Below are positions 957-50,982 of a DNA stretch of 64,000 nucleotides, piece by piece (position 1 is the stretch's first letter; each line of letters starts with the position of its first letter). Source of the DNA: a virus; IMG/VR virus record IMGVR_UViG_3300049432_000151, positions 21,050 to 85,049 of that record. The stretch is one strand, 5' to 3'. The notes below the pieces were generated by a model. It had not been told where the DNA came from. It saw only the letters and a program-made list of their open reading frames with translations, and searched no databases. A program made the translations under genes and the position numbers.

Positions 957-986
957 GGAGTGTGCGTCCGACGCTAAATCCCTACC
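957..986 (-). promoter_or_regulatory. Bipartite motif copy A (GGTAGGG-N17-CACTCC)
   Basis: On the minus strand GGTAGGG (986-980) is followed after 17 bases by CACTCC (962-957), upstream of the hydrolase gene. The same pair recurs at five other sites in this window. Downstream of CACTCC a complementary GGAGTG occurs, so a hairpin is also possible. The rest of the stretch between the hydrolase and position 1150 holds no gene I can support. Confidence 0.55.
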
Positions 987-1150
987 CTAGTCAGTGACAT
1001 TGTCCACCACTTCGACGCCGAGCGGACGCCGTGGACCTGGGAGCCCCGTCTGAGTTACGCCAACGGTGTGCCCTCCGGCCGATCTGCCCTGCGAAGAACG
1101 TCACCGAGCGCAGTGTCCGCGAGCGCGACGCCGTCGTAGCCTTTCGCGAT

Positions 1151-1378
1151 GCTTCGACGCTATGTCTTCTGCGCGGGTACCGCGACGTTGAGCGCAGCCG
1201 GTGGGCAACATCGTCGAGAACTGTGGATTGGCGTCGAGCTCGAGTCTCCGCGTGGGCGTCGACGTGCGAGCCTTCTCACGAGAGCATGGCTATGACCTCG
1301 TTCCCGCGGAGGCCTTCAGCGCCGAGGAGTTGGCCTCGATCGGTGTCGGCACCTTCGCTCACCTTCAAATCGTGTAGC
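1151..1378 (+). pseudogene. Frameshifted paralogue of the 82-aa protein at 4061
   Basis: Reading from ATG at 1151, the first ~30 codons match the protein at 4061 (shared FCAGTAT, then RRELWIGVE). Homology then continues in another frame (DVRAFSR.HGYDLVPA, ELASIGV) up to a TAG at 1378. The break is a net 7-base length difference just after the WIGVE segment, so the open frame is destroyed. This is a decayed duplicate. The two copies sit on either side of the membrane-protein gene at 1467-3734. The function of the family is unknown to me. Confidence 0.7.
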
Positions 1379-1466
1379 GACTCCTTAGGAGGAAGCAACC
1401 GACCCTGACGACAGGTAAATACTGCACCGCCTAGTATCACCGCGGCCGTTGTTGATCGCCCCGTAC

Positions 1467-3734
1467 TTACTGAGCCGCCTGACTGCCGGCTTCGACCGTA
1501 GCGGTGACGGTGTAGGTAACCGGCCCCGGATAACCCTGTACGACGATCCACCAAAGTCCGGCCGCCGGGTTGCGGTGGATACACTGCTCCGTTCGCGCAC
1601 GTCCGCTTGCGGCACAGACGCGGCGATTACCTTTTGGTGGCTCGGCAAAGTTGGTATACAGGTCAACGTCCGATGAGCCTTGAACGTCGACGCGCAGGGT
1701 CTTTGCTTGGTTTGGGACTGTGATCGCATAGCTGCGCGCGCTATTGCGCGGCAGGGTTTCGCCAACTCTCGCTACGCCGCTCGTGAGGTCGAGGTACGGA
1801 CATGACGAGGTGAAGTCGACCGTCTTCGTAGTCGGGATACTCACCGTCTGCGTCGTCGGCGAGAACTCGCAGAACGGCTTTGTCAGCGTTACTCCGTAGG
1901 TGCCCGCGACAAGGTCCGTCACGGTGTACACGCCAGTATCACCATTCGCCGTGAAGCTTAGCGGCGTGGCGCCTTTAGTCAAAGTAATGCTTGTATATGG
2001 CGACGGAACGCGAATTTGCAAGGAGTACGTCAAGCGCGCGGTCACCGTTGGACTGACATCCGCCGCGGCTGCGTGTAGCGCGATCCACCAGCGACCGGGA
2101 CGCGGAACCTCTGCTTCGCACATCCTTTCCCCGACGCCGGACACCCGGCAAGGAGTGGAAGCGCCTGTTGCTTTGGAGCCGAAAGTTGCAAACAGCTCTC
2201 CGCCAGCGGCGTCGCTACTTGTGACATTCAACCCTTGAGTTCCCGGAGGCACATCGATCCAATAATATCGCCACCGACCGCGTTCGAGCCGCTGGCCTGC
2301 GGCTGGGTTTCCATCGAAGAGTGGAGTATCCACTTCCGCTCTAATTTCTTTCGGCGCCGGTGCAGGCAACTCCGCCGGCGCTGGGCTGAACCAGTTAGTG
2401 AAGGCCGTGCGGAACATGCCGTCGCGACGGTCGGAGAGCAGTAACACGGCGATGACCAGCGCGCCTGCGATTGCGATCGGCAGGCCCCCTGCCCAATTGA
2501 CTTTGGCGCCCGCGGATGGCGGGATCGCGGTCTCTGGTGCCGGCGCAGATTCAGCCAACTTCGAGCGAAAAAGCCACATGACAGCGACAAGCGCGAGAAC
2601 AGCCCAAGAGACGATTCCGACCGTCGAGAAACCCGGGATGTCGAACCACGCTGCAGCAAGCCGGACGAGCCAGCCGGTCAAAGCACACGGCACCGCTGCG
2701 GCTACCGCTATTTGATACGAGCGCTGCAGCGTTCGCTGTCCAGTCATATCGGTACGCCACATCTTCGCGAGTGCCGCCGTCCCCAACGGCAGGATCAGGA
2801 AAAGGAGGAAGCCGACAAGCACTGTTCCAGCGACGAACGGTGCTCGAGCTGGGTCGATGAGGGTTGTCGGTGCAGTCGACGTGCGTAGATATTCAACGAG
2901 CTTCGGCGCGAAAGCTCGCGCGCCCAGAAGCAAGGTGCCGGCGGCAACCGCCGTCAGAAGGTACTGAAGGAGATATTTCGCTTGAGATCTAAATCCGCGT
3001 AAGAAGTCGTCATAGATGCGCTGGGCAACGATGGCGATCACGGCACCGACAGCTGCGGGAAAACGCACCGGTACCTGGGCAAGCGCGCTAGGAACCGCGA
3101 TGGTGGTCATCCACACATCAGGGACCGCATCAAATGAACCCTGCGCGCGACTTCGGACGATTGCAATGATGACCCAGGTGATGACTATCGGCAAGAGGAG
3201 GAGTAGGCGGATGTCTGCGAATCGATGAAGCGCTGCGATTAGTTTGACATCAGCGGCCGGGTACAGCGTTCTAGGCAAGGCGCGCCCGAGACTATCGAGT
3301 AACAGGATAACCAAGTAGGCGACCTGAGCGCTCGCGAGCCATCGCGGGATTGTGGAGTTGTTCTTCTCGTCGCTTGTATGGACGTCCACTACATATGCAG
3401 CGATAGTCGCGTGAGCCATCAGATACGCGAAGTAAACCTCCGGTCGCGTCGGCCGGTGGAGCACTAGTAGCGCCGTGGGAAAAGCGAGGAAAGCGACACC
3501 CAGAAGGGAGCCGACGCTGGATGCGAATGACGTGGCTGTACTCGCAACCACGTGCAACACAACTGCGACTAGAAGAGTGGCGGTAGTAACGTCAACGCCA
3601 ATCGCGTCGGCACGATCGCGTGAAAATCCGGAGATATAGACCGCCAGCGTGATCCACAGTACCGCGTACACACAGATCACTGCGACGGTGTAGTCGCTGC
3701 GGAGCCAGGTGCTGGACTTCGGTTTCGCTGCCAC
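1467..3734 (-). CDS. Polytopic membrane protein with C-terminal PPC-like domains
   Basis: A 755-aa protein. Roughly residues 15-430 contain about ten hydrophobic segments separated by short basic loops. A proline/alanine linker around 455-470 leads to an extracytoplasmic part with two pre-peptidase C-terminal (PPC)-like beta domains, each carrying the pattern R.Y.I.VP...L.V and ending near GRWWI or GLWWIVV. A TonB-box-like beta segment (TLTKG....FTANGDTGVYT) lies between them. Family knowledge: PPC domains are secreted beta-sandwich modules. The membrane part matches no transporter I recognise. It stands alone, with no operon partner visible. It is probably a cellular gene just left of the phage-like region. 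Confidence 0.75.
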   Translation of the reverse strand: MAAKPKSSTWLRSDYTVAVICVYAVLWITLAVYISGFSRDRADAIGVDVTTATLLVAVVLHVVASTATSFASSVGSLLGVAFLAFPTALLVLHRPTRPEVYFAYLMAHATIAAYVVDVHTSDEKNNSTIPRWLASAQVAYLVILLLDSLGRALPRTLYPAADVKLIAALHRFADIRLLLLLPIVITWVIIAIVRSRAQGSFDAVPDVWMTTIAVPSALAQVPVRFPAAVGAVIAIVAQRIYDDFLRGFRSQAKYLLQYLLTAVAAGTLLLGARAFAPKLVEYLRTSTAPTTLIDPARAPFVAGTVLVGFLLFLILPLGTAALAKMWRTDMTGQRTLQRSYQIAVAAAVPCALTGWLVRLAAAWFDIPGFSTVGIVSWAVLALVAVMWLFRSKLAESAPAPETAIPPSAGAKVNWAGGLPIAIAGALVIAVLLLSDRRDGMFRTAFTNWFSPAPAELPAPAPKEIRAEVDTPLFDGNPAAGQRLERGRWRYYWIDVPPGTQGLNVTSSDAAGGELFATFGSKATGASTPCRVSGVGERMCEAEVPRPGRWWIALHAAAADVSPTVTARLTYSLQIRVPSPYTSITLTKGATPLSFTANGDTGVYTVTDLVAGTYGVTLTKPFCEFSPTTQTVSIPTTKTVDFTSSCPYLDLTSGVARVGETLPRNSARSYAITVPNQAKTLRVDVQGSSDVDLYTNFAEPPKGNRRVCAASGRARTEQCIHRNPAAGLWWIVVQGYPGPVTYTVTATVEAGSQAAQ

Positions 3735-8809: not shown

Positions 8810-9118
8810 CTATTTGATCGTGCCCGCGTCCTTGCTGCACGATGTCCAATCGTTGAGGCAGTTTTGATGGCATTTGTCCTGGATCGCGCCATTCTCTTCC
8901 TTCGATAGCTCCGCGCGGCGGCCCCGATGTAGAGCGTTGCACTTCTTCAGGCAGTTGCCGATCGCGAGGTTGCATCGGCCCTGTTTGTCATCAGGTTTTT
9001 TCGCGACGACCTTCGGCTTCTTAGTCTTCGATACCGTGGTGGTGGTCTGAGATTGCGTCGCGGGCAAAAGCGCGACGAAGGCGAACATAACCGCAAGCGC
9101 TAACGCTGATCTCACCAT
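8810..9118 (-). CDS. Small secreted cysteine-rich protein
   Basis: A 102-aa protein with a clear Sec signal (hydrophobic ALALAVMFAFVALLPA, cleavage near TQS), a Thr/Lys-rich linker, and a C-terminal domain with six cysteines in two clusters (C......C...C and C...C......C), which would form three disulphides. It faces against the surrounding phage genes and has its own upstream element (copy B at 9148-9176), so it behaves as an independently transcribed cargo gene. No family recognised. A GGAG ribosome-binding site lies just before the ATG. Confidence 0.7.
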   Translation of the reverse strand: MVRSALALAVMFAFVALLPATQSQTTTTVSKTKKPKVVAKKPDDKQGRCNLAIGNCLKKCNALHRGRRAELSKEENGAIQDKCHQNCLNDWTSCSKDAGTIK

Positions 9119-9147: not shown

Positions 9148-9176
9148 GGAGAGCCATCCGGCTGCAAACCCCTACC
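9148..9176 (-). promoter_or_regulatory. Bipartite motif copy B (GGTAGGG-N16-CTCTCC)
   Basis: On the minus strand GGTAGGG (9176-9170) and CTCTCC (9153-9148, one mismatch to CACTCC) are 16 bases apart and end 30 bases before the start of the secreted Cys-rich gene. The CTCCT part could also pair with the AGGAG ribosome-binding site of the same gene. Confidence 0.55.
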
Positions 9177-10835: not shown

Positions 10836-11465
10836 ATGCTTCCCTACGTCCAGTCGTACAACGACCCGAAGATCGAGAAGGCGTATCACCGCTACCTGAA
10901 GGGTGACTCTCAGCGGGCCATCGCCAAGGCGCTGAACATCCCGCCGCGGACGGTCGCTCGGTACTGCAAGAAGGACGGCTGGCAATCGGAGCGTGAAGCC
11001 CGTCACGTGGCAGCAGAGGCCCCAAACGTGGCAGCAGTGGCAGCAACCGTCCAGACGCCTGCTGCCACCGAGGGACCTGTTCCGGAGAGTCGGATGGTCG
11101 GCATGGAGCGGATGCTCGGCGCACAGCAGCAGCTCACCGGGCTACTCGTCGAGGCGTTCAAGAAGGACGTCGAGAAGACGATCGCCGACGCGGCCACTGT
11201 CGGCAAGCCGATGAGCCGGTCGCAAATCGCGCAGCTCACGTCGCTCGGCAACAACCTGCTAACGATGCAGCGCAAGGCGTGGTGTGTACCGGACAAGATC
11301 GAGACGAAGGACACCACGCCAACCGCGCCTGATCGCGTGCGCACCCTGAAGGATGACGAACTCCAGAACCGCCTCACCGAGGCCCGTCGAGCTCGAGAAG
11401 AGGCCGATCGAAGAAGAGGAGCTGCTGCTCCTCGAGGAGGATCTGCGACGCCGAGCGTCAACTAG
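10836..11465 (+). CDS. terS: Terminase small subunit
   Basis: A 209-aa protein. Residues ~15-45 form a helix-turn-helix (YLKGDSQRAIAKALNIPPRTVARY), typical of small terminases that recognise the packaging site. The central part (about 90-150) is helical and probably drives oligomerisation, and the tail is Arg-rich. Its 3' end overlaps the large terminase start by 113 bases. The start is ATG 10836 because the HTH begins shortly after. With TerL it selects and cuts concatemeric phage DNA for loading into the procapsid. Confidence 0.8.
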   Translation: MLPYVQSYNDPKIEKAYHRYLKGDSQRAIAKALNIPPRTVARYCKKDGWQSEREARHVAAEAPNVAAVAATVQTPAATEGPVPESRMVGMERMLGAQQQLTGLLVEAFKKDVEKTIADAATVGKPMSRSQIAQLTSLGNNLLTMQRKAWCVPDKIETKDTTPTAPDRVRTLKDDELQNRLTEARRAREEADRRRGAAAPRGGSATPSVN

Positions 11466-12909
11466 CCTGCACGAGTTCGTTGCGCAGGCGTGGCACGTCG
11501 TCGAGCCCGCAGTACCGTTCAAAGACAACTGGCACGTCGGCGCGATCTGCGAGCACCTCGAGGCCATCTACCGGGGCGAGATCCTGCGGCTGCTCATCAA
11601 CGTTCCATTCCGCACGGCGAAGTCCACGATTGTCAGCGTCATGTCACCGGCGTGGCAGTGGATTCATCGGCCGGCTCACAAGTTCCTCTGCGGGTCGTAC
11701 GCGGCGAAGCTGGCGATCCGCGACAACCTCAAGATGCGGCGGCTGATCCAGTCGCCGTGGTACCAGGAGCGCTGGGGCCGCGGCTTCAACCTCGTCGACA
11801 ACAGCGACTGGGGCGACCCTGACGGCTTCAAGCTCACGGACGACCAGAACCAGAAGGTCCGGTTCGAGAACGACCGCACCGGATACCGCATCGCGTTCGG
11901 GTTCGACGGCGGCGTGATGGGCGATGGCGGCAACACCGTCATCATCGACGACCCTCACGATCGCAACCAGGCACACTCCGAGAAAGAGCGCGACAGGCAT
12001 CTCACCACGTTCGACGAGGCGGTTACGACTCGTCTCAATGACCCAACGCGAGATTCGATCGTGATCATCATGCAGCGACTGCATGAGAGCGATCTCTCAG
12101 GTCATGTGCTCGCGAAGGGCGGCTACGAACACGTCCTGATCCCGATGCACTACGACCCGAAGCGGTCGCGTGTGACGGTAACCGGGTGGGAAGATCCGCG
12201 CACGGAAGAGGGCCAGTTGATGCACCCCGATCGGTTCCCTGAGCCGGTCGTCGCGCAGATCGAAAAGGACATCGGCCCGTACGCGGCGGCCGGGCAGCTC
12301 GAGCAGCGACCCGCGCCATCGGAAGGCGGCATCCTCAAAAAGCAATGGTGGCGGTTCTACAACGACGACGAGCTGCCGGAGACGTTCGATCGCGAGTGCC
12401 AGATGTGGGATCTCGCGTTCAAGAAGACAAAGACGTCGAACTTCATCGCTGGCCAGGCGTGGGGCAAGAAGGGAGCGAACTGCTACCTGAAGCCCGACGA
12501 GGTCTACGCGCGGCTCGACTTCCCCGAAACGATCAAAGCAATGAAGGCGTTCTCGGTCCGGTATCCGCGCGGAGCTAAGCTGGTCGAGGACAAGGCCAAC
12601 GGGCCCGCGGCGATCTCGACGCTGAAAAATGACATCGCGGGCCTCATGCCCGTGGGCGAGGACGGCGGAGCCGAGGGCGTTGCGCATTCAGTCGCTCCAT
12701 ACATAGCCGCTGGCAACGTCTTCCTGCCGAACCCATACGACCGCCAGGGCAATCAGCGGCCTGACCGCGCTTGGGTATTGAGGCTCATCGCAAACGCGGC
12801 AACGTTTCCGAACGGGTCCATTCCGGCCGGGTCGCACGGTGACGACATCGTCGCGATGGTTTACGCAATTCACTACCTGATGCACCGACCGAAGGCGAGG
12901 GTGATCTGA
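11353..12909 (+). CDS. terL: Terminase large subunit (ATPase-nuclease packaging motor)
   Basis: A 518-aa protein. N-terminal ATPase: Walker A-like VPFRTAKST at 84-92 and Walker B VIIDD at 196-200, followed by a RNQAHSE segment. C-terminal RNase H-like nuclease: first acidic residue in MWDLAFKKT (Asp353), second in VEDKANG (near 411-417), third in HGDDIVAMVYA near the end. These are the expected motor and nuclease elements of large terminases, and the length fits. The overlap with the small subunit and the TGATG junction with the next gene mark it as part of one late operon. Confidence 0.93.
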   Translation: MTNSRTASPRPVELEKRPIEEEELLLLEEDLRRRASTSLHEFVAQAWHVVEPAVPFKDNWHVGAICEHLEAIYRGEILRLLINVPFRTAKSTIVSVMSPAWQWIHRPAHKFLCGSYAAKLAIRDNLKMRRLIQSPWYQERWGRGFNLVDNSDWGDPDGFKLTDDQNQKVRFENDRTGYRIAFGFDGGVMGDGGNTVIIDDPHDRNQAHSEKERDRHLTTFDEAVTTRLNDPTRDSIVIIMQRLHESDLSGHVLAKGGYEHVLIPMHYDPKRSRVTVTGWEDPRTEEGQLMHPDRFPEPVVAQIEKDIGPYAAAGQLEQRPAPSEGGILKKQWWRFYNDDELPETFDRECQMWDLAFKKTKTSNFIAGQAWGKKGANCYLKPDEVYARLDFPETIKAMKAFSVRYPRGAKLVEDKANGPAAISTLKNDIAGLMPVGEDGGAEGVAHSVAPYIAAGNVFLPNPYDRQGNQRPDRAWVLRLIANAATFPNGSIPAGSHGDDIVAMVYAIHYLMHRPKARVI

Positions 12910-13193
12910 TGCTCATGACGATCATTACGATTTTCGTCGTCACGCAGCTCGCGATCGCCGCCGTTGTGCTGCCGATCGCCTACATCCGGCGCCACGTTTA
13001 CCGCCGAAAGATGCTGTCGTTCTGCATGCGCGACTCGAATGGCGAGATCTACATCGTTGATCCGCAGACCGGCACGGCCCACAACTTCTCCAAGCTGCTC
13101 ACGGAACGGATGACGCCGTACAAACCGCGTTCTCCTCGGCAATCGAAGCGAGCACGCAGTCGCTTCCGTCGCCATCTCGCCGGGGCGCAATAG
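12909..13193 (+). CDS. Small phage membrane protein
   Basis: A 94-aa protein with one N-terminal membrane helix (about 1-28, rich in Ile, Val and Ala) followed by a short soluble part and a strongly basic tail rich in Arg and Lys. Its start overlaps the terminase stop (TGATG), and the portal gene begins 3 bases after its stop, so expression in the late operon is likely. Its position between terminase and portal sometimes holds head-joining or inner-membrane proteins, but no family is recognised. Confidence 0.65.
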   Translation: MLMTIITIFVVTQLAIAAVVLPIAYIRRHVYRRKMLSFCMRDSNGEIYIVDPQTGTAHNFSKLLTERMTPYKPRSPRQSKRARSRFRRHLAGAQ

Positions 13194-13196
13194 CGG

Positions 13197-15635: not shown

Positions 15636-15663
15636 CGCGCTTCCACGACGAAGGAGAACGAAC

Positions 15664-18024: not shown

Positions 18025-18082
18025 GACGTCGGGAGCTAACGCAGCCGCAACCGTTCCACTCATTCACCCTTCAACCGCACGA

Positions 18083-18110
18083 GGCCGCCGCGAGGCGGTC
18101 TTTGTCTTTT
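18083..18110 (+). terminator. Hairpin with T-rich tail upstream of major capsid gene
   Basis: GGCCGCC and GGCGGTC arms (one wobble) close a short loop and are followed by TTTGTCTTTT, in the 97-base gap between the protease and capsid genes. It could end part of the upstream transcript or stabilise the capsid mRNA 5' end. Confidence 0.6.
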
Positions 18111-18121
18111 CAGGAGAAAAG

Positions 18122-19399: not shown

Positions 19400-19449
19400 T
19401 TCGCGTCAGCCTCCCCTCGTCTCTTCTCCCATCATCAACCATCTGATCG

Positions 19450-19482: not shown

Positions 19483-19497
19483 TCAGGAGACACGGCT

Positions 19498-32133: not shown

Positions 32134-32141
32134 GGTAATCG

Positions 32142-33644: not shown

Positions 33645-33647
33645 CCA

Positions 33648-34022: not shown

Positions 34023-34575
34023 CATCCCAGCGTTCGTCGCAGAGAAGGAGAAGCGCTCCGGGAAGGCGTTTCTCCACCTGCTCGAGATCGAATACTCGGA
34101 CGGACAGTTCGTGAGGTACGTCCGGTACGACAAGCCGAACAGCGGCTGGGAAACTGAGCCGGGACAATGGCAGTCGTCGATCGCGCCCGACGGCTCACCA
34201 CTCCTCTTCGAGGGTGTCTTCTGGTCGCCATTCCCGATGTCAAAGCCGACACGGTCAGAGTCAGCGAACGGAGAGATTCCGGTACTCGACATCTCAATCT
34301 CCGGCGTAGGCCGAGAGATCGCTTCAATACTCGAGTTCTACGATATAGAGCAGCGGCCCGGGCGCACCGTCCGCGTTCACCCGGATCATCTCGCGGATCC
34401 GACAGCGAAGCGGGAATCGAAGTTCATCGTGAAGTCCGCGCGCGTGCTCGCCAACACCGCGATCATCACGGTGACACCGCTCATCTTCGACCCGCTGGCG
34501 ACGTACCTCCCGCGGCAACGCGTCAGCTCGGCGAAGTTCCCCGGGATCCTCGGCGCCGGTCACTCCATTCGATAA
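34015..34575 (+). CDS. Minor tail protein, L-like
   Basis: A 186-aa protein. The central block PSKPTRSESANGEIPVLDISISG followed by ILEFYDIEQRPGRTVRVHPDHL resembles lambda gpL and related tail-tip proteins. In lambda-type gpL the C-terminal region carries cysteines for an iron-sulphur cluster. Here it reads LPRQRVSS.KFPGILG with no cysteine, so the metal site is absent. Starts inside the preceding gene and is followed 4 bases later by the K-like gene. Confidence 0.7.
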   Translation: MLSIPAFVAEKEKRSGKAFLHLLEIEYSDGQFVRYVRYDKPNSGWETEPGQWQSSIAPDGSPLLFEGVFWSPFPMSKPTRSESANGEIPVLDISISGVGREIASILEFYDIEQRPGRTVRVHPDHLADPTAKRESKFIVKSARVLANTAIITVTPLIFDPLATYLPRQRVSSAKFPGILGAGHSIR

Positions 34576-34578
34576 CAC

Positions 34579-34920
34579 ATGCGATTCTCACAGCAGGCCG
34601 CGCAGGCTCTCACCAGCCTGGTCGGGATGAAGTACGCCCGGATGAATTGCTGGCGTGTCGTCCAGTTCGCGTACAACGTGCAAGGCGTAAAGCTGCCCGA
34701 CTACTGGTCAGCGCTTTCGCTGTTCCGAACGCTCGGTCCTACTGAGGAGCGTCAGCCGTTCGACGTGGCTGTCATTCGGAACCACTCGATCGTCACCAAC
34801 CACGTCGGCCTCTACCTCGGCGACGGTCAGATCCTGCACTCCATGGAAGACACAGGCGTCGTCTGTCAGCCGCTCTCGCGCATCGAGCGAGTGGTCGGCT
34901 TCCTCCGCCTCCACACCTGA
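34579..34920 (+). CDS. NlpC/P60-like tail-tip peptidase, K-like
   Basis: A 113-aa protein. NlpC/P60 features: catalytic Cys in MNCWRVVQFAY (Cys24 region), His in TNHVGLYLGDG (near 77) and a second polar residue in ILHSM (near 88). Equivalent to the C-terminal domain of lambda gpK, the tail-tip enzyme placed next to the J hub, which may cut peptidoglycan during entry. The gene stop overlaps the hub start. The JAB domain found in full-length gpK is missing. Confidence 0.8.
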   Translation: MRFSQQAAQALTSLVGMKYARMNCWRVVQFAYNVQGVKLPDYWSALSLFRTLGPTEERQPFDVAVIRNHSIVTNHVGLYLGDGQILHSMEDTGVVCQPLSRIERVVGFLRLHT

Positions 34921-37900: not shown

Positions 37901-40259
37901 GAAGACCGATCTCACCGGCCTGCTTTGGCGCGGGAAGACGATCCGCTTTCAGATTGACGACCCGACGCAGCGGTCGTACACGCTGTACCTCCGTGCGGTC
38001 GACAAGTTCTCGAACTACTCCGCTGGCGCCGCAACGACCACCCTGACCGATACAGCGCCTGCAGCTCCGTCGATCATCTCGATCACAAGATTCAAGAATC
38101 AGCTGAAGGTGAAGGTCGGGGCGGCCGCTGACAGCGACGTGTTCGCGCAACGCCTGCATGCCTCGCAGTCAACAGGCTTCACGCCTGATGAGAGCAGCAT
38201 TGTCAGCGGTATCGTCGGCCCGAACGGCGGCGAGTTCGTCGTCCCGATTACCGCATCGGGCAACTGGTATTTCAGGCTCGCGGCTGAGGATTGGCTGTCC
38301 GATCGGCTGAACGACTGGATCTACTCGCCGCAGGCCTCGAGCTCAATCATCGTGGTCTCACCGGTTGATCCCACCGCTGTGACGCTGACGATCCTCGATC
38401 GCCCGGACAAGCCGATGGGGTCCGTGAGGAATCCGGACAACACGGTGATGCCGATCAAGCTGAAGGCAGCGAACGTCGGCTTCACTTTCAGCGACGTCGT
38501 CAATCCGGCGAACTCGCTCATTGGGTTTGACGTTCTCATATACGAGAGCGTCGATGGTCCGTCAACGCCGGCGGCGCAGCACTTCCTCACGAACGTCGCG
38601 GACCGCGCGCATTTGTTTCTGAACTTTCAGCCGAAAGGCGCGAGCACCTACATCGCGGCGGTGCGCGCCGTCTACGTCGACGGGCTGACGTCGAATCTTG
38701 TCACCCATACGGGAGTCGTGATTCCCCAGGAGACGAATCCGAACTTCCGCGACGCTGATGATCGCAACGTCACCGCACTTGCGGAGAGCTTCGAAGGAGC
38801 CGGCGTTCCAACAGGCATCACTGTGCCAATTGGGACGATCATCACGGTGGCCAATGGGCTTCTAATCCTAGCAACGACGGCATCCGGCGCCAAGATCACG
38901 TGGAATCTAGCGACGTGGGTGGCGGCGTACCTTGACCGCCACTACGCGCTCTCCGAAGCGGTTGTTCTGCTGCGCGTCTTGTTCAGTGGCGCGTCGTACA
39001 ACCAAGCGGCGCGTCCCTACATTGAAAAAGGCGCATCTACTTACAACCTCGATCCTGTAGCGGTTGACGGCAACCTGCACACTTATCGTCTAAAAGTCGG
39101 CGGTGTAACAACCTCCGCGGAAATCATCTCCCTGGTTGTGCCGGCCGCGTTCATGCCGAGTGGCTCGGCAGTGGCCTTGTCTGCCATTGCCGTCGCGTAC
39201 GAGAACTTCGATGAGTCGCTCGACGGCTACATGGACCGCGCGCAACGAGCGCGCGATCAGTTTGGAAAGGATCCGACAGGAGGAGGCTTCTTCCTCCAGT
39301 CGCCATTTCGAAACTCCGACGACAGCGGGCAGATCACTCTCATCGACGGTAACGGGATGACGTGGCTGCGCACCGGCGGCGGTGCGGAGTTCGCGCTAAA
39401 GTATGCCCACAAGATTGTGCTGTCTGACGTTTACGACGGCCTCGTTCTCAACTGGGACACGCTGTACGGCAGCAACCCCTCAGTCGATCCTCCGGTACGA
39501 AAACCGTCAGCCAGCAACAAAGCCCGCTTCATCGTGGAAGCGGTTGCGCCCGTTCAGCCTAACCCCGCCGCGTATCCGGTTCGCCGGTACGCGGAGATCA
39601 CGATGGTCAACGACTCCAACTTCCAAGTGAACCTGATGGAGTCATACGGCGGAACAAAGGGTAGCTATCGCGACGTCGCGCCGGCGACTCCCGGGTGGAA
39701 CGTTGCTGCGAAGAAGAGTCAGATTCTCAAACACGCGACGCATTCGCACAGCGCGAACGATGGCAGTGACGGATGGTACGACTTCACACCCCTAAGCCCA
39801 GCCACATTGCCGAACACCGGCGCCGCGTACTATCGCGTGGTCGCGTGGTTGAAGACCACGTTTCCAGTTCAGAAGAAAGCGAACGGTTCGTATTACTGGG
39901 TGAAGTTGCTGCTCGATGCCTGGGCGTCCGCACCCGTGGCCGCGTCGAACCCGCTCACTTTATCCAGCGCTGGACTGGCGAATCTGCAGCTCACATTCAA
40001 GGGAGTCACTGACGGTACCGAAGCCCGAATGCCGGTTGTGTTTGCCGCGTCGACGCTCGGGGCGATGCAGTCGTACGCCCACGCGTTGAAGTTCGACTGG
40101 TGGTCGACGGTGCTCGAATCCGGAGCGCCCGGCGGAGCTGAGCCGAGCGCCGTGTACCTTGACGCGGTCGAGGTCTACTGGATGAACAGCGCGGCTTACT
40201 CGCCCGTCACTTCGACGCAGGGCTACAACATCAATCTCATCGCCGGGGAGGCGTTCTAA
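34920..40259 (+). CDS. Central tail hub / host specificity protein, J-like with I-like N-terminus
   Basis: A 1779-aa protein. Residues ~1-130 resemble lambda gpI-type proteins (beta-grasp start, then a hydrophobic Gly/Ala-rich segment at ~105-150). Residues ~165-900 carry gpJ-like hub elements (GVPVPIVFGKNRTGIVRVGAFI; AEAGDLIHVQHDIPQWGFGG). Two or three fibronectin-III-like repeats follow (about 905-1130: ITSGEAKEI.., APPTPTGFVGAVEDGVFLFSWNP, TAPAAPSII). The remainder to the C-terminus is a mixed beta tail likely to contact the receptor. It closes the lambda-like order M-L-K-I/J and should set host range. Confidence 0.85.
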   Translation: MIKVHVPTGLPTSGGKLEFCSYERDFRPGASVADYLIELAILPELVSHVIYNGGSLSPEKTVRYRTKPKGFWRRMLRLSPAKIAVLQSDLEAATPRDGDEFHVIPSVEGKNAAQILGAVSAAVVIAAGFYVGGPSGALFAAKAWGLYAYAAGSFAGSLLTPRADNIKAPGDDGPTTHTWGGLLNEDREGVPVPIVFGKNRTGIVRVGAFIRRSKGIPGYTNGVETLHILGLVSVGPVHSIGDIRVNDQPYTNFPGVTVETRLGTTGQAPLKGFSVVANTFPLSVELTPSGYTYSTRANFPVDSLEVLLTIPALFHVDEDRGEQKTNATRYRYRHRLKGGAFGAWTDVEVKRSSRSAVLETVRIENLTRGEYDVEIQFVSADHVNDQRDAWKIFLTGVTEELEDLRTYDGYAMVAVRAIAREDLNGQIPNISVLCEGLELETWNGSGFTAPAYLSGAEEIGRSPAWIILKLLRDRSVRDAVTGEYTYEAFGLGDWITDDQIDLDSFLTLADRANEAVTAKRIVKDSNGAENAEEFQEPRFLLDIVVNQEQRALELIRTLLATCRAFLVFSGNQWRVVCEMPKTPVQLFTMGNIKKGSFSIAYNADRTINALVPQFIDADRDYEFTTHEPIDGPGVTHYNQPRRSENQQFVGITRRTQVIREALYNLNKRWYIRRLIGFTAGTAGILAEAGDLIHVQHDIPQWGFGGCALASTPNGLTSSDTLVVLGREVTLEAGKTYQLVVRFQDGSHDEGESRTVADGPGTYSALYVTTPFSRPVQENDIWWFGEVSPQPCTVVEIAETDGDEDERQLLAVEYNESIENDETVVVVPQLSNLPRFLAPPPPITSGEAKEIISARNDGRWSSTIVVQWTPPTAQSGYGVYSHADVDISFDGGTSWVPAPNGQGLGSDYRITDAEHGTPYKFRITPISTRGIANRAGAFTTASLTTQGKTTAPPTPTGFVGAVEDGVFLFSWNPVAIDDLQREVEYEVRTSNPANWKTDLTGLLWRGKTIRFQIDDPTQRSYTLYLRAVDKFSNYSAGAATTTLTDTAPAAPSIISITRFKNQLKVKVGAAADSDVFAQRLHASQSTGFTPDESSIVSGIVGPNGGEFVVPITASGNWYFRLAAEDWLSDRLNDWIYSPQASSSIIVVSPVDPTAVTLTILDRPDKPMGSVRNPDNTVMPIKLKAANVGFTFSDVVNPANSLIGFDVLIYESVDGPSTPAAQHFLTNVADRAHLFLNFQPKGASTYIAAVRAVYVDGLTSNLVTHTGVVIPQETNPNFRDADDRNVTALAESFEGAGVPTGITVPIGTIITVANGLLILATTASGAKITWNLATWVAAYLDRHYALSEAVVLLRVLFSGASYNQAARPYIEKGASTYNLDPVAVDGNLHTYRLKVGGVTTSAEIISLVVPAAFMPSGSAVALSAIAVAYENFDESLDGYMDRAQRARDQFGKDPTGGGFFLQSPFRNSDDSGQITLIDGNGMTWLRTGGGAEFALKYAHKIVLSDVYDGLVLNWDTLYGSNPSVDPPVRKPSASNKARFIVEAVAPVQPNPAAYPVRRYAEITMVNDSNFQVNLMESYGGTKGSYRDVAPATPGWNVAAKKSQILKHATHSHSANDGSDGWYDFTPLSPATLPNTGAAYYRVVAWLKTTFPVQKKANGSYYWVKLLLDAWASAPVAASNPLTLSSAGLANLQLTFKGVTDGTEARMPVVFAASTLGAMQSYAHALKFDWWSTVLESGAPGGAEPSAVYLDAVEVYWMNSAAYSPVTSTQGYNINLIAGEAF

Positions 40260-44338: not shown

Positions 44339-45958
44339 CTACTGCTCGGCAGCGGTCGTTGGCGACGCGGTACTGCCGGTGTTTCGATTCTGGATGTCCG
44401 CGAACCCGAAACCGACGTAGTAGTAAAAACGGTCGCCGGGTACGTTCAGGTTCCATCCGGCGCCGACATGCAAGCGATCACGGAACAGCCCGAATACCGG
44501 ACCAGCACCGACCTCAAGATTCTGAGTCGTGTCAAAGTCTAGGTATGAGACGTTGATTCCGGCGGAGAGGCCGTTAAACACGACCCATCGCGTTTCGGAT
44601 CGTCGCGCGCGGTGCGAGAAGAGGAGTGAGATACCGGCCGCGCCCTTGAAGTTGGAGGTCTGTGTGTTAGCCGCCGGCTCGCTGCTTCGCTTAACTAACA
44701 TGAAGGACGGTGAGACATTTGTCGCAAATCCGAAGTCGCGGATGTAGAGCGGCGGCAACGGTACAGTCCGATATGTCGTGGCGTTCTCGCTCGGATACAC
44801 GCGAAGGTTGATGTACAGCGTGTCGCCGACTTTCGCGTCCTGCGTCCGAAGATTAATGTAGCCGTTGGGTACCTCGCTCGACAGCGTCGCAGCGGTGCGG
44901 AGATCCTGTTCACGGGGCGGGAACAGTTTCGCAAGCGCAGCGATTGTTTCCACGATGCTGGCACGCACACGTGCCTCACTTTCAACCCCTGCGCGAATCT
45001 GCTCGTCAAGTTCTGTCAGTGCGCGGTTTCGGCTCTCGGCCTCGGTCGCAGCGTTTGATGTAACTTGTTCGCGCGCGGCTCGTGCGGTTCTTGCAGCTTG
45101 CAGAGCGGTCTGCGCGTCAGCGATCTCCTGCGGCGTTCCGTTAGCAGCGGTGACAGTCTGCAACCGCGCCGCAGCAATGTCCTCCACCGTTAACGCCTGT
45201 TCCAACGCGGTACGTGCGGCTTGCAATGACGCTGTCGCCTGCTGCGACGACGTAAGCAACTGAGGTCGGCGTGGCTCGAGACTCTCGATACTCGTGCGCG
45301 CAGCACGAATCGCGATTAGGTCTGACGCTAAGTCTTCGCGCCTAGCAGTGAGATCGCTGATACTTGTCTGCAGAATGTCGCTTGTTGCCTCTGAGACTGC
45401 GTCGTTCGCGGTGCTCGCTGTAAGACTGTCGAGGACATCCTGTGCGCGGCTTATCAGGACGCTACCGACAGCTCCTCGCGCGGAGCCGACGCGCCGCATG
45501 AACGTGCGGAGTTCTGGAAGTGAAATGCTGCGGAGTCCGACGCGCACTGCATCAGTCGGTTTGCCAACCTCCGTGTAGTTCTGTACCTCTACCGCACGAG
45601 ACCCGATCCGCGCCTCAAATGAGATTTTTTTACGCGCGTAGTCCGGATCGGCATCGAGCGCCGACGCGTCGACGCAGAGTATGAGAAGGCTGTCGGCATC
45701 AACGTGCAACCTGCCGGGCTTCTCCCAAGCATCAACGGAGATATTTTCCGTCCCGTCGTACTCGGCGACGGTGAGGAAGGGCAGTGTAGGGAGCGGCTTA
45801 ACCGTTTGGCAGTCTACGCTGTTCCTAGCGCTGGAGGTGGTGCGAGTGGCGGTGGCCTCTGTCTTTGCTGCGGTGGCGCGATTTGTCGATGTGGCGGGAC
45901 GGTCCTGCGCCGAAGCGCAGATTGACGTGGCGAGGGCGAGCAGCAGCGCGAAGCGCAT
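44339..45958 (-). CDS. Secreted coiled-coil protein with C-terminal beta-barrel-like part
   Basis: A 539-aa protein. Signal peptide 1-17 (LLLALATSICASA). A Thr/Ala-rich linker and a beta domain (about 55-150) precede a long Ala/Glu/Arg-rich coiled coil (about 185-340). The last ~170 residues alternate strands ending in aromatic residues (YYYYVGFGF), as in outer-membrane barrels or porin-like sensors. GGAGTG ribosome-binding site 5 bases before the ATG, complementary to the CACTCC box upstream. Cotranscribed with the NlpC/P60 gene. Likely an envelope protein; function unknown. Confidence 0.7.
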   Translation of the reverse strand: MRFALLLALATSICASAQDRPATSTNRATAAKTEATATRTTSSARNSVDCQTVKPLPTLPFLTVAEYDGTENISVDAWEKPGRLHVDADSLLILCVDASALDADPDYARKKISFEARIGSRAVEVQNYTEVGKPTDAVRVGLRSISLPELRTFMRRVGSARGAVGSVLISRAQDVLDSLTASTANDAVSEATSDILQTSISDLTARREDLASDLIAIRAARTSIESLEPRRPQLLTSSQQATASLQAARTALEQALTVEDIAAARLQTVTAANGTPQEIADAQTALQAARTARAAREQVTSNAATEAESRNRALTELDEQIRAGVESEARVRASIVETIAALAKLFPPREQDLRTAATLSSEVPNGYINLRTQDAKVGDTLYINLRVYPSENATTYRTVPLPPLYIRDFGFATNVSPSFMLVKRSSEPAANTQTSNFKGAAGISLLFSHRARRSETRWVVFNGLSAGINVSYLDFDTTQNLEVGAGPVFGLFRDRLHVGAGWNLNVPGDRFYYYVGFGFADIQNRNTGSTASPTTAAEQ

Positions 45959-46001: not shown

Positions 46002-46030
46002 GGAGTGACGTGGCTCGCCTTTTCCCTACC
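46002..46030 (-). promoter_or_regulatory. Bipartite motif copy C (GGTAGGG-N16-CACTCC)
   Basis: On the minus strand GGTAGGG (46030-46024) and CACTCC (46007-46002) are exact, 16 bases apart, and end 44 bases before the start of the secreted 539-aa gene. The CACTCC box is perfectly complementary to the GGAGTG ribosome-binding site of that gene. The rest of 45959-46196 shows no gene. Confidence 0.65.
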
Positions 46031-46196: not shown

Positions 46197-47042
46197 TCAA
46201 AAGGCGCTGTAATCTATGAATCCCTTGTTGATCGACGCAACTTTGCGCGAGTCTCGGCGGAACACGCCGATTCCATCTCGAGACCCGTCATCGTTTGTGT
46301 TTCCTTCGATCGTCACTAGGCGGCCATTCGCGACGCCGAGAACAATTCCGGAATGGCCCTTGCCGCCACCTGTATCAATGATGAAGAGCGCGCCAGGCCG
46401 GACGAGCGTGGGATCATCGGTCGCCGCCGCGCCGGTGACGCGGGTAACGTTCGGTTCGGTGCGCGCGAGCCGCCAATGCTCTAGCACGCCGGCCGTCTTG
46501 ATATGCGGACTGCGGATGGTGAGCGCCGCAGCTGCCTGCATGTAGCAGAAGTGCGTAAAAGCTACGCACCATGCGTAACTAGCCTTTGCGGGATTCTTTC
46601 CGACGCTTCGTAGGTATTCATCGATTTCAGGCCCGCGGTTGGATCCGACAGGATCCTCCATCACACCGACCTGCGAAGCGGCGAAGACGATAACGGCTTC
46701 AGTTAACTCGGACGTTGCAACGAAATTCGATGGGACACTACTCGCTCCGAACAATGCGCCCCAAGTCAAAGATCCGACGTGACCATCCACTTTTAGCGGA
46801 CGCTTCGTCACGTCCAAATGACGAGCTTGGAACAGCCTGACAGCTCTGTCGGTCGCTACATCGAACACGCCGTTCTCAGCTATGGGGCCGCACCCGATTT
46901 GATTTAGACGGACCTGGATCTGATGTACTGCAGCGTCAGTACTGCCACGCTTTTGCAGAACGCCGGGATAGGGCGTCGCCGAAGCATCGGTGTCAGGCAT
47001 GCGAGTGGCGCTGCTTGCCGGCGGATAGCTTGGCGCGCTCAA
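46197..47042 (-). CDS. Peptidoglycan-binding / CHAP-type amidase
   Basis: A 281-aa protein. Residues ~32-100: peptidoglycan-binding domain 1 (VHQIQVRLNQIG, FDVATDRAVRLFQARHL, VDGHVGSLTW). Residues ~125-280: CHAP/TIGR02594-like amidase with catalytic Cys in SYAWCVAFTHFC (near 158), His in GKGHSGIVLG (near 231) and an Asn after EGNT. No classic signal peptide, as in phage endolysins. Starts with TTG (an ATG at 47000 is also possible). Last gene of the fulvocin-like operon, 15 bases after the Clp-N-like gene. It would cleave peptidoglycan in target or own wall. Confidence 0.75.
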   Translation of the reverse strand: MSAPSYPPASSATRMPDTDASATPYPGVLQKRGSTDAAVHQIQVRLNQIGCGPIAENGVFDVATDRAVRLFQARHLDVTKRPLKVDGHVGSLTWGALFGASSVPSNFVATSELTEAVIVFAASQVGVMEDPVGSNRGPEIDEYLRSVGKNPAKASYAWCVAFTHFCYMQAAAALTIRSPHIKTAGVLEHWRLARTEPNVTRVTGAAATDDPTLVRPGALFIIDTGGGKGHSGIVLGVANGRLVTIEGNTNDDGSRDGIGVFRRDSRKVASINKGFIDYSAF

Positions 47043-47057
47043 AGAGCGCGAACGGTC

Positions 47058-47546
47058 TCAACCTTCATCCTCCTTGTGCTTCGTCGAGATCGCACTCTCG
47101 TCGAGGCCGTGAGCCGCAAGCCGATCCGCCAATGAGCGGTCAGCACGCAAAATGTCGAGCAGCAACTCCAACGGTGGGATGCCCACGTGCCCGTGCTGCT
47201 CGATGATGCGCGTCATTATTTGTCGCATGACCGCATCTGCCGGCGGTGGCTTGTGCACCGCCAGGCATTCGTTGGATGGCACAGCGATTCCTTTGCGTTC
47301 AAACTCCTGCTCGAAGTTACGCTGGCACGCCTCGAATCGCATCGCCTGCGGGTCTTCTACACTCTCAAGCAGTTCCGCATGATTTAGTCCCGCATGGGCA
47401 CAGAATTTGACTACGGACGGAGTCCGCAGAAGTGCCGCGACCACTCGGCGGGTCGCGGTTTCGGGCTCCCCTGCAACCCCGGCCACCGCTCCCGCCCAGA
47501 AAGTAGCGAGATACGTCTCACGTCTGTGACGCCAAGCGATCTCCAT
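47058..47546 (-). CDS. Clp N-domain-like 162-aa protein
   Basis: A soluble protein with two helical repeats reminiscent of the Clp N-terminal double motif: ALLRTPSVV.......AELLESVED (about 38-65) and ELLLDILRADRSLADRLAAHGLDESA (about 127-152). No ATPase part. The gene starts 9 bases after the fulvocin-like gene and precedes the CHAP hydrolase by 15 bases, so it is internal to the operon. A chaperone, adaptor or immunity role would fit, but none is shown. Family call is from pattern memory. Confidence 0.55.
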   Translation of the reverse strand: MEIAWRHRRETYLATFWAGAVAGVAGEPETATRRVVAALLRTPSVVKFCAHAGLNHAELLESVEDPQAMRFEACQRNFEQEFERKGIAVPSNECLAVHKPPPADAVMRQIMTRIIEQHGHVGIPPLELLLDILRADRSLADRLAAHGLDESAISTKHKEDEG

Positions 47547-47555
47547 GTCAAATCT

Positions 47556-48263
47556 TTACGGGTTCGGAACGTTCTGTTTGCATTTTCCCCAGCATGCCTC
47601 GTTGCCGAAAACCCCACAATGCGAGAGGGTTGTGTTGCAGTATGAGTCCGAACACACCGATGTAGTCATCCACCCGGCACCACATTCCCAAATGCCCGAG
47701 CACGTGCACTTCGGAGTTGCGTCGCCGACATCGTTCACACCCACTTTCATCCGCTGCAACATTGCGCCCGCTGCGTTCTCAGCGGGGATCATCGGACCGT
47801 GACCCAAGCGAAGAAACGCTTCAGTGTAGATCTCCCGCGACAGAACGGCCTTAGCGTCAGTCTTGAACGCTTCGAGAGCGTTGGTTTTTGCGTCGTATCC
47901 AATCGAGCCGACCTGAAGGTCAAACCAGCCGGGACTGGCGGCCAGACTCGCTCCGCGTGCGAGAATCTCCCTCGCCTCGGGCGAGAGCGCTGGATGATCT
48001 CGAACGTACTTCTCGATGTTGTACGACCACAGGGCGCCGAGCGTGGCCGAACGTAGCCCCCATGTTTGCTCGCGCTGTAGCTCGAGCGGCAGATCGGCTA
48101 GCGCAAAGTAGAGCTGCTCCACTTCGCTCTGCGAGACTTGTTTCAGCCGTGCACACGACTGTTCGTCCGTGCCGCCACTGCCGGTGGGATCACTGCCTGG
48201 TTCCACCGCCTGTGCGGCGAGAGCCAGCAAAATAACAGCAAACGTCACAAGCATTTTCCTCAT
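47556..48263 (-). CDS. Fulvocin C-related bacteriocin precursor
   Basis: A 235-aa protein. Signal peptide (MRKMLVTFAVILLALAAQA), a helical proregion (about 35-135: LPLELQREQTW, YVRDHPALSPEAREILARG) and a C-terminal core of ~45 residues with eight cysteines, CxC-x5-C-x9-C-x4-C-x6-C-x7-C-x3-C, close in size and cysteine order to the myxobacterial peptide fulvocin C. Family knowledge: fulvocin C-related proteins are annotated as bacteriocin precursors. Its start overlaps the CxxCH gene by 4 bases, and a CHAP hydrolase lies downstream. Maturation protease unknown. Confidence 0.7.
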   Translation of the reverse strand: MRKMLVTFAVILLALAAQAVEPGSDPTGSGGTDEQSCARLKQVSQSEVEQLYFALADLPLELQREQTWGLRSATLGALWSYNIEKYVRDHPALSPEAREILARGASLAASPGWFDLQVGSIGYDAKTNALEAFKTDAKAVLSREIYTEAFLRLGHGPMIPAENAAGAMLQRMKVGVNDVGDATPKCTCSGIWECGAGWMTTSVCSDSYCNTTLSHCGVFGNEACWGKCKQNVPNP

Positions 48264-49600
48264 CGTTTTTTCTCCTCTTCGCCATTTAAGATATTTGCAT
48301 GGTCGCGAGTCGTCGCGACCAGACGCTGCACTAGAACCTCGTCGACGTACGCGCGGAGTACAGAGATGCGGTACGGAAGAAACACCGTCTCGAGAGCGGG
48401 CGATAGCCGCACCGCTTGTGCCGTTGAGTCGTCTTTTACATGCTCACCAGTCTCGAACGCGCTCGGAAAGACGTCCCGGCCACCAACTGGGCCTGGCTTC
48501 CCATGGCACCCGACGCAGTTCTGTGTCTCCGACCGGTCGATAATCTCTTCCGGAGTGAGGGCGCTGCCAATTCGGAGCAGCTCGGCGGCAATGTCGTCTC
48601 GAAACTGCTGCCCCGCCTCCGTCCGCATCGATCGTCGAAAAGGCAAGCGGTAGTTGAAACCCGCTTGCACACCGCTAATGTCCGTAATTGCATAGGAGAG
48701 ATCGGTACTCATCGAATATCGGTTCACACCCGAACGGGCGAGCGACTGCACCTGCCGAAGAAAATCGCGCCGAAAAGCTGCGCCGCGCTCACCCGCTACG
48801 TTCGTGTCGAAGAGGTTTCCGTCAGGCGTGTTGTGAAGCGGAACGCGGGTCAGGCGGGCAGCGCACGGATGGAAGGCGGAACAATCTCGCCTTATCGCGA
48901 ACTCGGCGAAGTTCGGCCGCCCATCTCCGACTTCGCTGGTACGGACGCGTCCGTACTGCTCGAAAGTCGCGCGGCTGAGCACAGGCGGAAGTTGTTCGAT
49001 ACCGTCGAAGAAGAACGCCGATAGCTTTGCGGCGCGCTCTTGGTCGGAACGCAGATTCGCCAGCTCCCACCAGAACGCAGCGATTGGTGCACAGCCAAGC
49101 TTTCCGAGCGCCGGACTCGGATTGGCGACGACTGTCTCGAAGGCGACATGTAGCCGACGTCGCTGACCATTGCGGTGCGAAAAGATTACCCTGTACTCGC
49201 CACAGTTCGAGTAGTCATCCGGGGCGAGATCGAATCGGTTGATTACGGCGATCGGCCTGACGTTCGCCCATCCGATCGAGGCCGCCGGCAGCCATCTGAC
49301 GTTCCCCCGCATCGCGACAAATCCCGCGAGCGGTACGACCGCTTGTCGCTGCTCGAACGTTGTTCGTGTCGTATTGAAGACGTCGAGCCACGCGTCTGCC
49401 GAACTTGAGCTGACCGCAGTCACTACTTTCTCAAACGAAAAAGGCGATAACGAGTGGCCGTCCGTGATAACGAAGGCTCGGCCGGCCACCACTTTACTCG
49501 TCGATTCGAGGGAGTCATAAGGGTCGCTTCCGGCGACGTGCGCCGCGATACAGAGCACAGCGATGATCTTGGCGCTGGCGAGAAGATAGCGCTCCACCAT
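48260..49600 (-). CDS. Exported haem c-binding (CxxCH) protein, first gene of fulvocin-like operon
   Basis: A 446-aa protein from ATG 49600 (the frame stays open further upstream but that part lacks coding character). Signal-like N-terminus (IIAVLCIAAHVAG). One CVGCH haem c motif near residue 362, in the C-terminal third, and two other cysteine pairs (YSNCGEY..., CAPIAAF). The rest resembles the large periplasmic proteins with a lone C-terminal cytochrome motif found in Acidobacteria and Myxococcota genomes. Overlaps the bacteriocin gene (ATGA). Motif D lies 40 bases upstream. It might take part in oxidative maturation of the Cys-rich peptide; this is speculative. Confidence 0.7.
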   Translation of the reverse strand: MVERYLLASAKIIAVLCIAAHVAGSDPYDSLESTSKVVAGRAFVITDGHSLSPFSFEKVVTAVSSSSADAWLDVFNTTRTTFEQRQAVVPLAGFVAMRGNVRWLPAASIGWANVRPIAVINRFDLAPDDYSNCGEYRVIFSHRNGQRRRLHVAFETVVANPSPALGKLGCAPIAAFWWELANLRSDQERAAKLSAFFFDGIEQLPPVLSRATFEQYGRVRTSEVGDGRPNFAEFAIRRDCSAFHPCAARLTRVPLHNTPDGNLFDTNVAGERGAAFRRDFLRQVQSLARSGVNRYSMSTDLSYAITDISGVQAGFNYRLPFRRSMRTEAGQQFRDDIAAELLRIGSALTPEEIIDRSETQNCVGCHGKPGPVGGRDVFPSAFETGEHVKDDSTAQAVRLSPALETVFLPYRISVLRAYVDEVLVQRLVATTRDHANILNGEEEKKR

Positions 49601-49640: not shown

Positions 49641-49669
49641 GGAGTGATGGACGGACGGCTTTCCCTACC
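49641..49669 (-). promoter_or_regulatory. Bipartite motif copy D (GGTAGGG-N16-CACTCC)
   Basis: Exact GGTAGGG (49669-49663) and CACTCC (49646-49641) on the minus strand, 16 bases apart, ending 41 bases before the start of the fulvocin-like operon. Confidence 0.65.
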
Positions 49670-50005: not shown

Positions 50006-50034
50006 GGTAGGGAAACGTGCTCCGGCATCACTCC
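50006..50034 (+). promoter_or_regulatory. Bipartite motif copy E (GGTAGGG-N16-CACTCC)
   Basis: Exact GGTAGGG (50006-50012) and CACTCC (50029-50034) on the plus strand, 16 bases apart, upstream of the SGNH hydrolase gene. It is the divergent partner of copy D. Confidence 0.65.
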
Positions 50035-50115
50035 ATGGGAAAGCTCAAACAGCACGAAGGTGGGAGAACGCTCGCAGTGCGGGTGTATTCACTTCGGTGG
50101 GTGTTTACGGGAGAG

Positions 50116-50916
50116 ATGATGGTCCAACTGTCTTGGGTACAGCAAAGGCAGCTGTTGCAGTTCTTCACTGCTTCGATCCGCGACTATCCGAGTTATCCCG
50201 TAGTGATAAGCGAGGGAGACTCGTGGTTTTCATTTCCCGTTCACGCGAACATCATCGATCACCTCGACGACATGGTCGGACGGCGTATGTCGCTCCTGCG
50301 TCTCGAGCGCAGCGGTGATGAGCTGGTCGCGATGACCACCGAGTCGAAATTGAAAACGCTCGGCGGCTATCTTCAACGGTACAAACCGCACGTGCTTCTG
50401 TGGAGCGGCGGTGGAAACGACATCGTCGGGCCGGAGCTCCTCAAGTTCATCGCACCCCGCGGAAACACATTCGACGTGACCGCGGCGCTTGGGACTCAAA
50501 CGCTCAAGAAGCGCTTTGCCGATATTAATGCTGGGTACCAGCGAGTCATCGCGATGCGCGATGCCAAGGCACCCGCATGCGTGATCATCACGCACGGGTA
50601 CGGAAACGCCATTCCATCTGGCCGAAAAGCGAAGCTGCTCGGAATCACCGCGGGCCCGTGGATCAAGCCTTTTCTCGAAGCTCAGGGCTACACAACGAAG
50701 AAGGAGCAGCAAACGATCCTCGATGAACTGCTCGGAAGGTTCAACGCGATCGTCGATGGGTACGTCGGCGCGGGCTTCATCAAGTGCGATGTAGCAAGCG
50801 TGGTCGGTCCAGACGAGTGGAACGATGAACTCCATCCCACTAGAAAGGGGTTCGAGGATGCGGCGACCGTCTTCCACGCCGAGCTCCGGAAGCAACTGCC
50901 GGCGAAGTTCCCCTGA
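50116..50916 (+). CDS. SGNH/GDSL hydrolase
   Basis: A 266-aa protein from ATG 50116. Block I: EGDSWFSFP with catalytic Ser near 34. Block III: GGNDIVG near 95-101. Block V: DELHPTRKG near the C-terminus with catalytic Asp/His. The SGNH family cleaves esters on polysaccharides, lipids or peptidoglycan O-acetyl groups. No signal peptide in this version; earlier starts (GTG 50077 or ATG 50035) stay in frame and cannot be excluded. The gene has its own upstream motif (copy E), divergent to the bacteriocin operon. Confidence 0.85.
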   Translation: MMVQLSWVQQRQLLQFFTASIRDYPSYPVVISEGDSWFSFPVHANIIDHLDDMVGRRMSLLRLERSGDELVAMTTESKLKTLGGYLQRYKPHVLLWSGGGNDIVGPELLKFIAPRGNTFDVTAALGTQTLKKRFADINAGYQRVIAMRDAKAPACVIITHGYGNAIPSGRKAKLLGITAGPWIKPFLEAQGYTTKKEQQTILDELLGRFNAIVDGYVGAGFIKCDVASVVGPDEWNDELHPTRKGFEDAATVFHAELRKQLPAKFP

Positions 50917-50952
50917 GTAGACCGCCCGACTAAGCACGGGAACAACGAAGTG

Positions 50953-50982
50953 GGTACGGATACACCCAACCCTTGTCACTCC
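50953..50982 (+). promoter_or_regulatory. Bipartite motif copy F (GGTACGG-N17-CACTCC)
   Basis: GGTACGG (50953-50959, one mismatch) and exact CACTCC (50977-50982) on the plus strand, 17 bases apart, ending 33 bases before the small lipoprotein-like gene. Confidence 0.5.

Follow-up and report, generated by a model that had tools for sequence, protein, structure and literature searches.

What recognizes a two-box element that recurs along a provirus, and what would it do there? The 64,000-nucleotide (nt) stretch of DNA analyzed here, the window, comprises positions 21,050-85,049, i.e., the right part, of the 85,049-base IMG/VR provirus record IMGVR_UViG_3300049432_000151, and it carries six copies of a pair of boxes, GGTAGGG-N16/17-CACTCC. 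With a probability that we put at about 0.8, these boxes are the -35 and -10 elements of a promoter read by an extracytoplasmic function (ECF) sigma factor of one lineage of Acidobacteriota, a promoter that the prophage has borrowed, and the sigma gene belongs to a module that also encodes a ZAS/TPR protein and a small secreted peptide.

An earlier inspection of the letters, termed here the sequence-only reading, had listed four exact copies of the pair and two copies with a single mismatch, and all six were recovered both by a pattern scan and by an independent weight matrix (Table 1). Beyond these six, the window holds no copy with one mismatch or fewer when spacings of 12-21 nt are scanned. 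The chance expectation given in that reading, 0.004 exact pairs per 64 kb, is right, and none was found in 100 dinucleotide shuffles of the window. The matrix, whose training set comprised 84 sites from other genomes and none from the window, returned exactly the six sites and nothing else above a score of 10; the shuffled background per window is 0.08 matches at 10 or more and 0.017 at 18 or more. The copy at 9148 is the weakest, and a score of 18 is reached by shuffles about once per 60 windows. Each of the six sites faces an open reading frame on its own strand, as had been claimed. The further claim that the sites mostly end 30-55 bases before a start codon held for most of them, the distance being about 29, 33, 40, and 43 nt at four sites, but failed at two: the site at 957 is followed by a leader of about 100 nt, and at 50006 one ATG abuts CACTCC and is too close to the start site of the proposed promoter, the next good start being 84 nt away.

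The distribution of the element was then followed through related bacterial genomes, most of them metagenome-assembled. Among twelve relatives, four genomes had 34, 22, 5, and 3 copies of the exact pattern and the rest had at most one; the reversed pattern occurred 0-2 times per genome, and only once in each of the two genomes with 34 and 22 exact matches. Over 149 genomes of the class, there were 229 copies of GGTAGGGA-N15/16-CACTCC in 18 genomes (2-33 each), as opposed to two of the reversed pattern, and the remaining 131 genomes together held four. In a phylum sample of 396 genomes, two or more copies occurred only in members of the same lineage. A phage-only promoter was rejected because copies of the motif occur throughout bacterial genomes, and a ubiquitous motif was rejected because it is lineage-restricted in both the class and the phylum. 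The lineage is one of soil Acidobacteriota, and the host flank of the record matches Thermoanaerobaculia-like Acidobacteriota; the M13 peptidase in this cellular flank has 65-67% identity to proteins of Acidobacteriota/Thermoanaerobaculia metagenome genomes.

Alignment of the sites gave the fuller consensus RGGTAGGGAWW-N11/12-G(T/A)CACTCCT, followed by a purine peak 7-8 nt past CACTCC (66 aligned sites). The spacer is 16 nt in 53 of the 66 and 17 nt in the other 13, the search pattern having admitted only these two lengths. A coding frame begins downstream at 52/66 sites versus 19/66 in the reverse direction, at a median distance of 33 nt, and some start codons lie only 4-9 nt from the site, as in leaderless transcripts. 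For some target families the site is kept while the spacer diverges, an example being a small protein behind sites in G001, G002, G003, and G005. The 16-17 nt spacing, the fixed orientation, and the purine peak fit -35 and -10 boxes. Promoters of ECF (group IV sigma-70) factors likewise have two boxes 16-17 nt apart, are linked to the sigma gene, and control small regulons; many ECF factors use GGAAC-type -35 boxes, whereas the boxes here are GGTAGGG and CACTCC.

A candidate sigma factor emerged from G005, where the distance between one site and the ECF sigma gene that follows it is 14 nt; among the first twelve genomes, the four that clearly bear the motif, and no others, have relatives of this ECF. 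A profile built from eleven homologues and searched over the 149 class genomes scored at least 144 bits in all 18 motif genomes. Only one of the remaining 131 did so (G030, at 154 bits and without a site), and none of the rest exceeded 102 bits. The co-occurrence yields a Fisher p of 3e-22, a value that overstates independence because the genomes form one lineage. The position of the sites near ECF genes is stronger evidence than co-occurrence by genome: for 38 ECF genes with listed sites, a same-strand site lies at most 1 kb upstream in nine and at most 2 kb downstream in eight, and none lies on the opposite strand. Seven of the eight downstream sites are at 1.35-1.42 kb, immediately past the next gene, and the eighth is at 1.96 kb; in eleven orthologous loci, the site keeps a near-constant distance of 1.31-1.42 kb from the ECF stop codon, and in the ECF tree the loci with the downstream arrangement form one clade. 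Peptide-gene promoters of related ECF clades read GGTAGC(A/G)-N16-CAC(GC/CC/TA) with identical spacing; the promoter sequence thus changes with the sigma paralogue while its geometry is kept, as predicted by recognition by a sigma factor. It is highly likely, to judge from these sequences, that the sites are where an ECF of the GGTAGGG clade initiates transcription. The earlier suggestion that the pair represents the -35/-10 boxes of an alternative sigma factor is supported by the genome-wide enrichment in relatives (229 copies versus two reversed over 18 genomes) and by the co-conserved ECF gene, which often carries the motif itself.

The assignment to the ECF class stands at the level of the superfamily. 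Sigma70_r2 and r4 profiles match several of the linked members, and the NCBIfam sigma70-ECF model is above cut-off for most of them, the first member reaching 36.7 of 42.9 bits; none of the curated NCBIfam ECF subfamilies was reached. Another ECF clade has peptide genes (L174:1650 and L257:6036, both minus) with neither GGTAGGG nor GGTAGC. These share AACCGTTAA(T/C)ACT...GGTCACCCTCC, and their ECF genes are preceded by GGTAGGG; the presence of GGTAGGG before ECF genes whose peptide genes have another motif suggests a sigma cascade.

The partner gene beside the ECF gene encodes an N-terminal H-x3-C-x2-C (ZAS) motif, of which H28, C32, and C35 are invariant in five of five partners, and a long TPR domain; the protein has no clear membrane segment and looks cytoplasmic. 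The Hx3Cx2C motif defines zinc-binding class I anti-sigma domains (PMC7406223), and in class I systems a sigma gene likewise sits beside an anti-sigma-like gene with this motif, but the partner here carries a TPR domain, which the survey in PMC7406223 never mentions. The ZAS domain probably restrains the ECF factor. In ECF42, a C-terminal TPR extension on which activity is thought to depend is fused to the sigma factor, and there is no anti-sigma factor, whereas here the TPR domain lies in a separate protein behind the ZAS motif (PMC8999054). The predicted structure of the partner is a TPR superhelix (predicted local distance difference test score, pLDDT, 83). Its neighbours in the PDB are for the most part LGN and the pheromone receptors Rap and NprR of Bacillus; by sequence, NprR and Rap are among many TPR proteins matched. 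The RRNPP receptors (Rap, NprR, PlcR, and ComR), described in Gram-positive bacteria (PMC12998947), are likewise cytoplasmic TPR proteins whose genes adjoin that of a short secreted peptide, the promoter of which is subject to feedback. They act on DNA or on response regulators; the proposed effector in Acidobacteriota is instead an ECF sigma factor, reached via ZAS. No RRNPP-type helix-turn-helix (HTH) or response-regulator-binding effector domain was found in the partner, which has the N-terminal ZAS motif instead; an exception as to context is viral record G013, in which a separate XRE-HTH gene precedes the ZAS/TPR gene. The literature searched contained no description of GGTAGGG with sigma factors, of TPR anti-sigma factors, or of Thermoanaerobaculia sigma factors, the main ECF classification lying outside that search.

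Of the 38 ECF loci whose flanks were long enough, 30 have a gene for a small secreted peptide of 53-72 residues; it usually follows the TPR gene or is oriented divergently from it, and many of the peptides end in P-K/R/H-P. Many predicted peptide mRNAs begin with AGGGCGCCCTCC, after which come a hairpin whose sequence varies, GGAGGG, and the start codon, and the predicted fold pairs the AGGGCGCCCTCC segment with the ribosome-binding site around the hairpin in 20/20 examples. This leader begins 5-8 nt after CACTCC, which offers a second hint as to where transcription may start. Among the 18 motif genomes, 11 contain the exact leader pattern, with 19 occurrences in total, versus seven in the remaining 131 genomes; four leader-bearing loci compared with Rfam gave no match above gathering score, and the leader is absent from the window. 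In its conserved form, GGGCGCCCTCC, variable hairpin, GGAGGG, and start codon, it was seen at L237, L242-L261, L174, L225, L233, and others.

Targets outside the module include TIR, patatin, RES, trypsin-like, astacin, SGNH, and ice-binding proteins, tyrosinase, multicopper oxidase, AraC regulators, sigma genes, and a eukaryote-type N-myristoyltransferase. The sequence-only reading had described the genes as secreted or envelope-related, and a mild enrichment of secretion signals exists (16/56 versus 24/153, p=0.047); with so many targets of other kinds and an enrichment this weak, a secreted-gene regulon was rejected as a strict rule. The N-myristoyltransferase (351 amino acids; PF01233, 2.5e-34) is encoded in G002 (contig C74, L139:1003-2954) 4 nt downstream of a site, and the open reading frame after it has an internal start, MGNSIGTP..., a possible myristoyl acceptor.

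Taken as a whole, the gene arrangement suggests an undescribed peptide-signalling circuit. The ZAS/TPR protein would hold the ECF factor until a ligand binds the TPR superhelix; most simply, the ligand would be the secreted peptide after processing and re-import, which the TPR part might sense. A peptide promoter of the same class would provide positive feedback, the peptide leader would add translational control, and other ECF genes carrying the motif would create a cascade, the same promoter class thus driving the peptide gene, other ECF genes, and scattered accessory genes. The broader proposition is that Acidobacteriota possess circuits in which a processed peptide frees the ECF from a TPR anti-sigma factor, with diverging sets of peptide, receptor, sigma, and promoter, a leader masking the Shine-Dalgarno sequence, and phage cargo plugged in; it is tentative, and we would give it somewhat less than an even chance. 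Several observations weigh against the ECF promoter and its module as proposed. The co-occurrence follows one lineage, so few independent events underlie it, and three motif genomes (G017, G019, and G020) lack an ECF of the GGTAGGG clade, perhaps owing to incomplete assembly. The ECF genes of that clade have no exact site directly before themselves, the site preceding the peptide gene instead, and no peptide gene was seen in 8 of the 38 ECF loci. Finally, TPR superhelices bind many ligands, and the similarity to Rap and NprR is therefore not specific.

The most serious alternative accepts the promoter but not the pheromone: the peptides would be antimicrobial or envelope-active, and the ECF/TPR module would sense stress or damage. 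This falls only just short of an even chance, as the peptides combine a signal sequence with a short cationic amphipathic stretch, genes for an ABC ATPase and permease (so named from sequence only) follow the peptide gene in one ECF clade, and the hydrolases, TIR, patatin, and RES proteins of the regulon would suit conflict; it must nevertheless contend with the fact that most paralogous ECF modules own a diverged peptide, as expected of paired signals, with the short Pro-rich C-terminus conserved in many of these peptides, and with a ZAS/TPR partner that looks cytoplasmic. It is improbable that the element is instead an operator for a classical DNA-binding regulator over or near an ordinary promoter, a possibility raised in the sequence-only reading: the boxes are not symmetric, their 16-17 nt spacing and orientation are fixed, some start codons lie just 4-9 nt downstream, and the sequence shifts with the ECF clade, even though operators can consist of two conserved parts and the neighborhood of the ECF genes could include a regulator gene. 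Pairing of CACTCC with a GGAGTG ribosome-binding site in a leader RNA, also proposed there, was rejected as very improbable: GGAGTG does follow CACTCC at some copies in the window, but of 84 sites elsewhere only 1 has it within 60 nt, and the true Shine-Dalgarno-masking leader at peptide genes has a different sequence and starts after CACTCC.

Returning to the provirus with the ECF promoter as the preferred explanation, the six sites are distributed on either side of the structural region, and the genes toward which they point are accessory rather than late genes. The 85-kb record as a whole has four exact sites. All six window copies lie within its provirus part; the sequence-only reading had joined cellular and phage-region cargo into one regulon, and the cellular members were seen in relatives. 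To the left of the window, the record encodes a repressor, an exonuclease, and a Gp3-like recombination factor. The last of the genes behind site 4 encodes an endolysin-like protein with peptidoglycan-binding and CHAP domains.

Table 1. Promoter-like sites, the genes they face, and other landmarks of the window
Feature	Position	Strand	Remarks
Promoter-like site 1	957..986	-	Exact, N17; matrix score 26.0
Site 1 target: signal-peptide-like alpha/beta-hydrolase	2..856	-	Cut by left edge of window
Promoter-like site 2	9148..9176	-	One mismatch in box 2, N16; score 18.9, weakest
Site 2 target: small Cys-rich protein	8810..9118	-	Hydrophobic N-terminus
Promoter-like site 3	46002..46030	-	Exact, N16; score 32.7
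Site 3 target: 539-amino acid protein	44339..45958	-	Signal-peptide-like N-terminus; no Pfam family
Promoter-like site 4	49641..49669	-	Exact, N16; score 30.0
Behind site 4: four co-directional genes	46197..49600	-	446, 235, 162, and 281 amino acids
Promoter-like site 5	50006..50034	+	Exact, N16; score 28.7
Site 5 target: SGNH/GDSL-like hydrolase	50119..50916	+	Start uncertain, 50035 also possible
Promoter-like site 6	50953..50982	+	One mismatch in box 1, N17; score 23.7
Site 6 target: 55-amino acid lipoprotein-like peptide	51016..51183	+	33 nt downstream; read from sequence
Phage structural region: terminase, portal, capsid, tape measure, tail fibre J	11353..40259	+	
Cellular flank: GGDEF response regulator, M13 peptidase	57654..61916		Places host in Acidobacteriota

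Phage morons, or lysogenic-conversion genes, are likewise accessory genes that flank structural modules, with promoters of their own and an orientation independent of the late genes; here too, accessory genes with their own predicted promoters lie on either side of the structural region. The difference is that here a single ECF-type promoter of the host lineage is common to several units scattered over one provirus. The provirus would have placed a host promoter before at least five, probably six, cargo units, which in the lysogen would be turned on together with the host circuit, and it would depend on the host ECF. A sigma factor encoded on the provirus itself was rejected, as no relative of the linked ECF was found in the 85-kb record by a search that had no positive control on this record. 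With the tail-fibre protein as query, no relatives of this virus were found. Near the right end of the provirus (52523-55987, minus), a C5 DNA methyltransferase, a Vsr-like open reading frame, and a large HATPase protein lie in a row that looks like a modification/defence island.

Other viral records were scanned for the pattern. The first pattern gave 17 stretches in IMG/VR, most of which resemble chance matches (e.g., one sequence in several related contigs), and further narrow pattern scans added little; G013 and G014 are regarded as genuine. Phage record G014 (90 kb; portal, terminase, and endolysin) has three exact sites, and at L213:10890-11897 a motif site directly precedes a secreted S1/P1 nuclease gene. 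In G013 (L215:10700-13300), the XRE-HTH gene is followed by the ZAS/TPR gene, which seems to be broken by a change of frame, and then by a motif site and the gene for a P-R-P peptide, an arrangement that amounts to the module without its ECF. Note that this provirus and G014 came to notice by carrying sites, and no general enrichment in phages is claimed.

With these results, one regulon of an abundant, mostly uncultured phylum has both a promoter sequence and a candidate sigma factor, and gene sets become predictable from metagenomes. One temperate phage fits several separate cargo units with one host-lineage promoter, and the timing of cargo expression becomes testable. If the peptide step is true, a TPR anti-sigma factor responding to a secreted peptide would be a new mode of ECF control, and the peptides would constitute a peptide-signalling family outside Gram-positive bacteria. 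If it is also true that phages plug cargo into the peptide circuit, lysogens would express phage-borne enzymes on the signal of the population.

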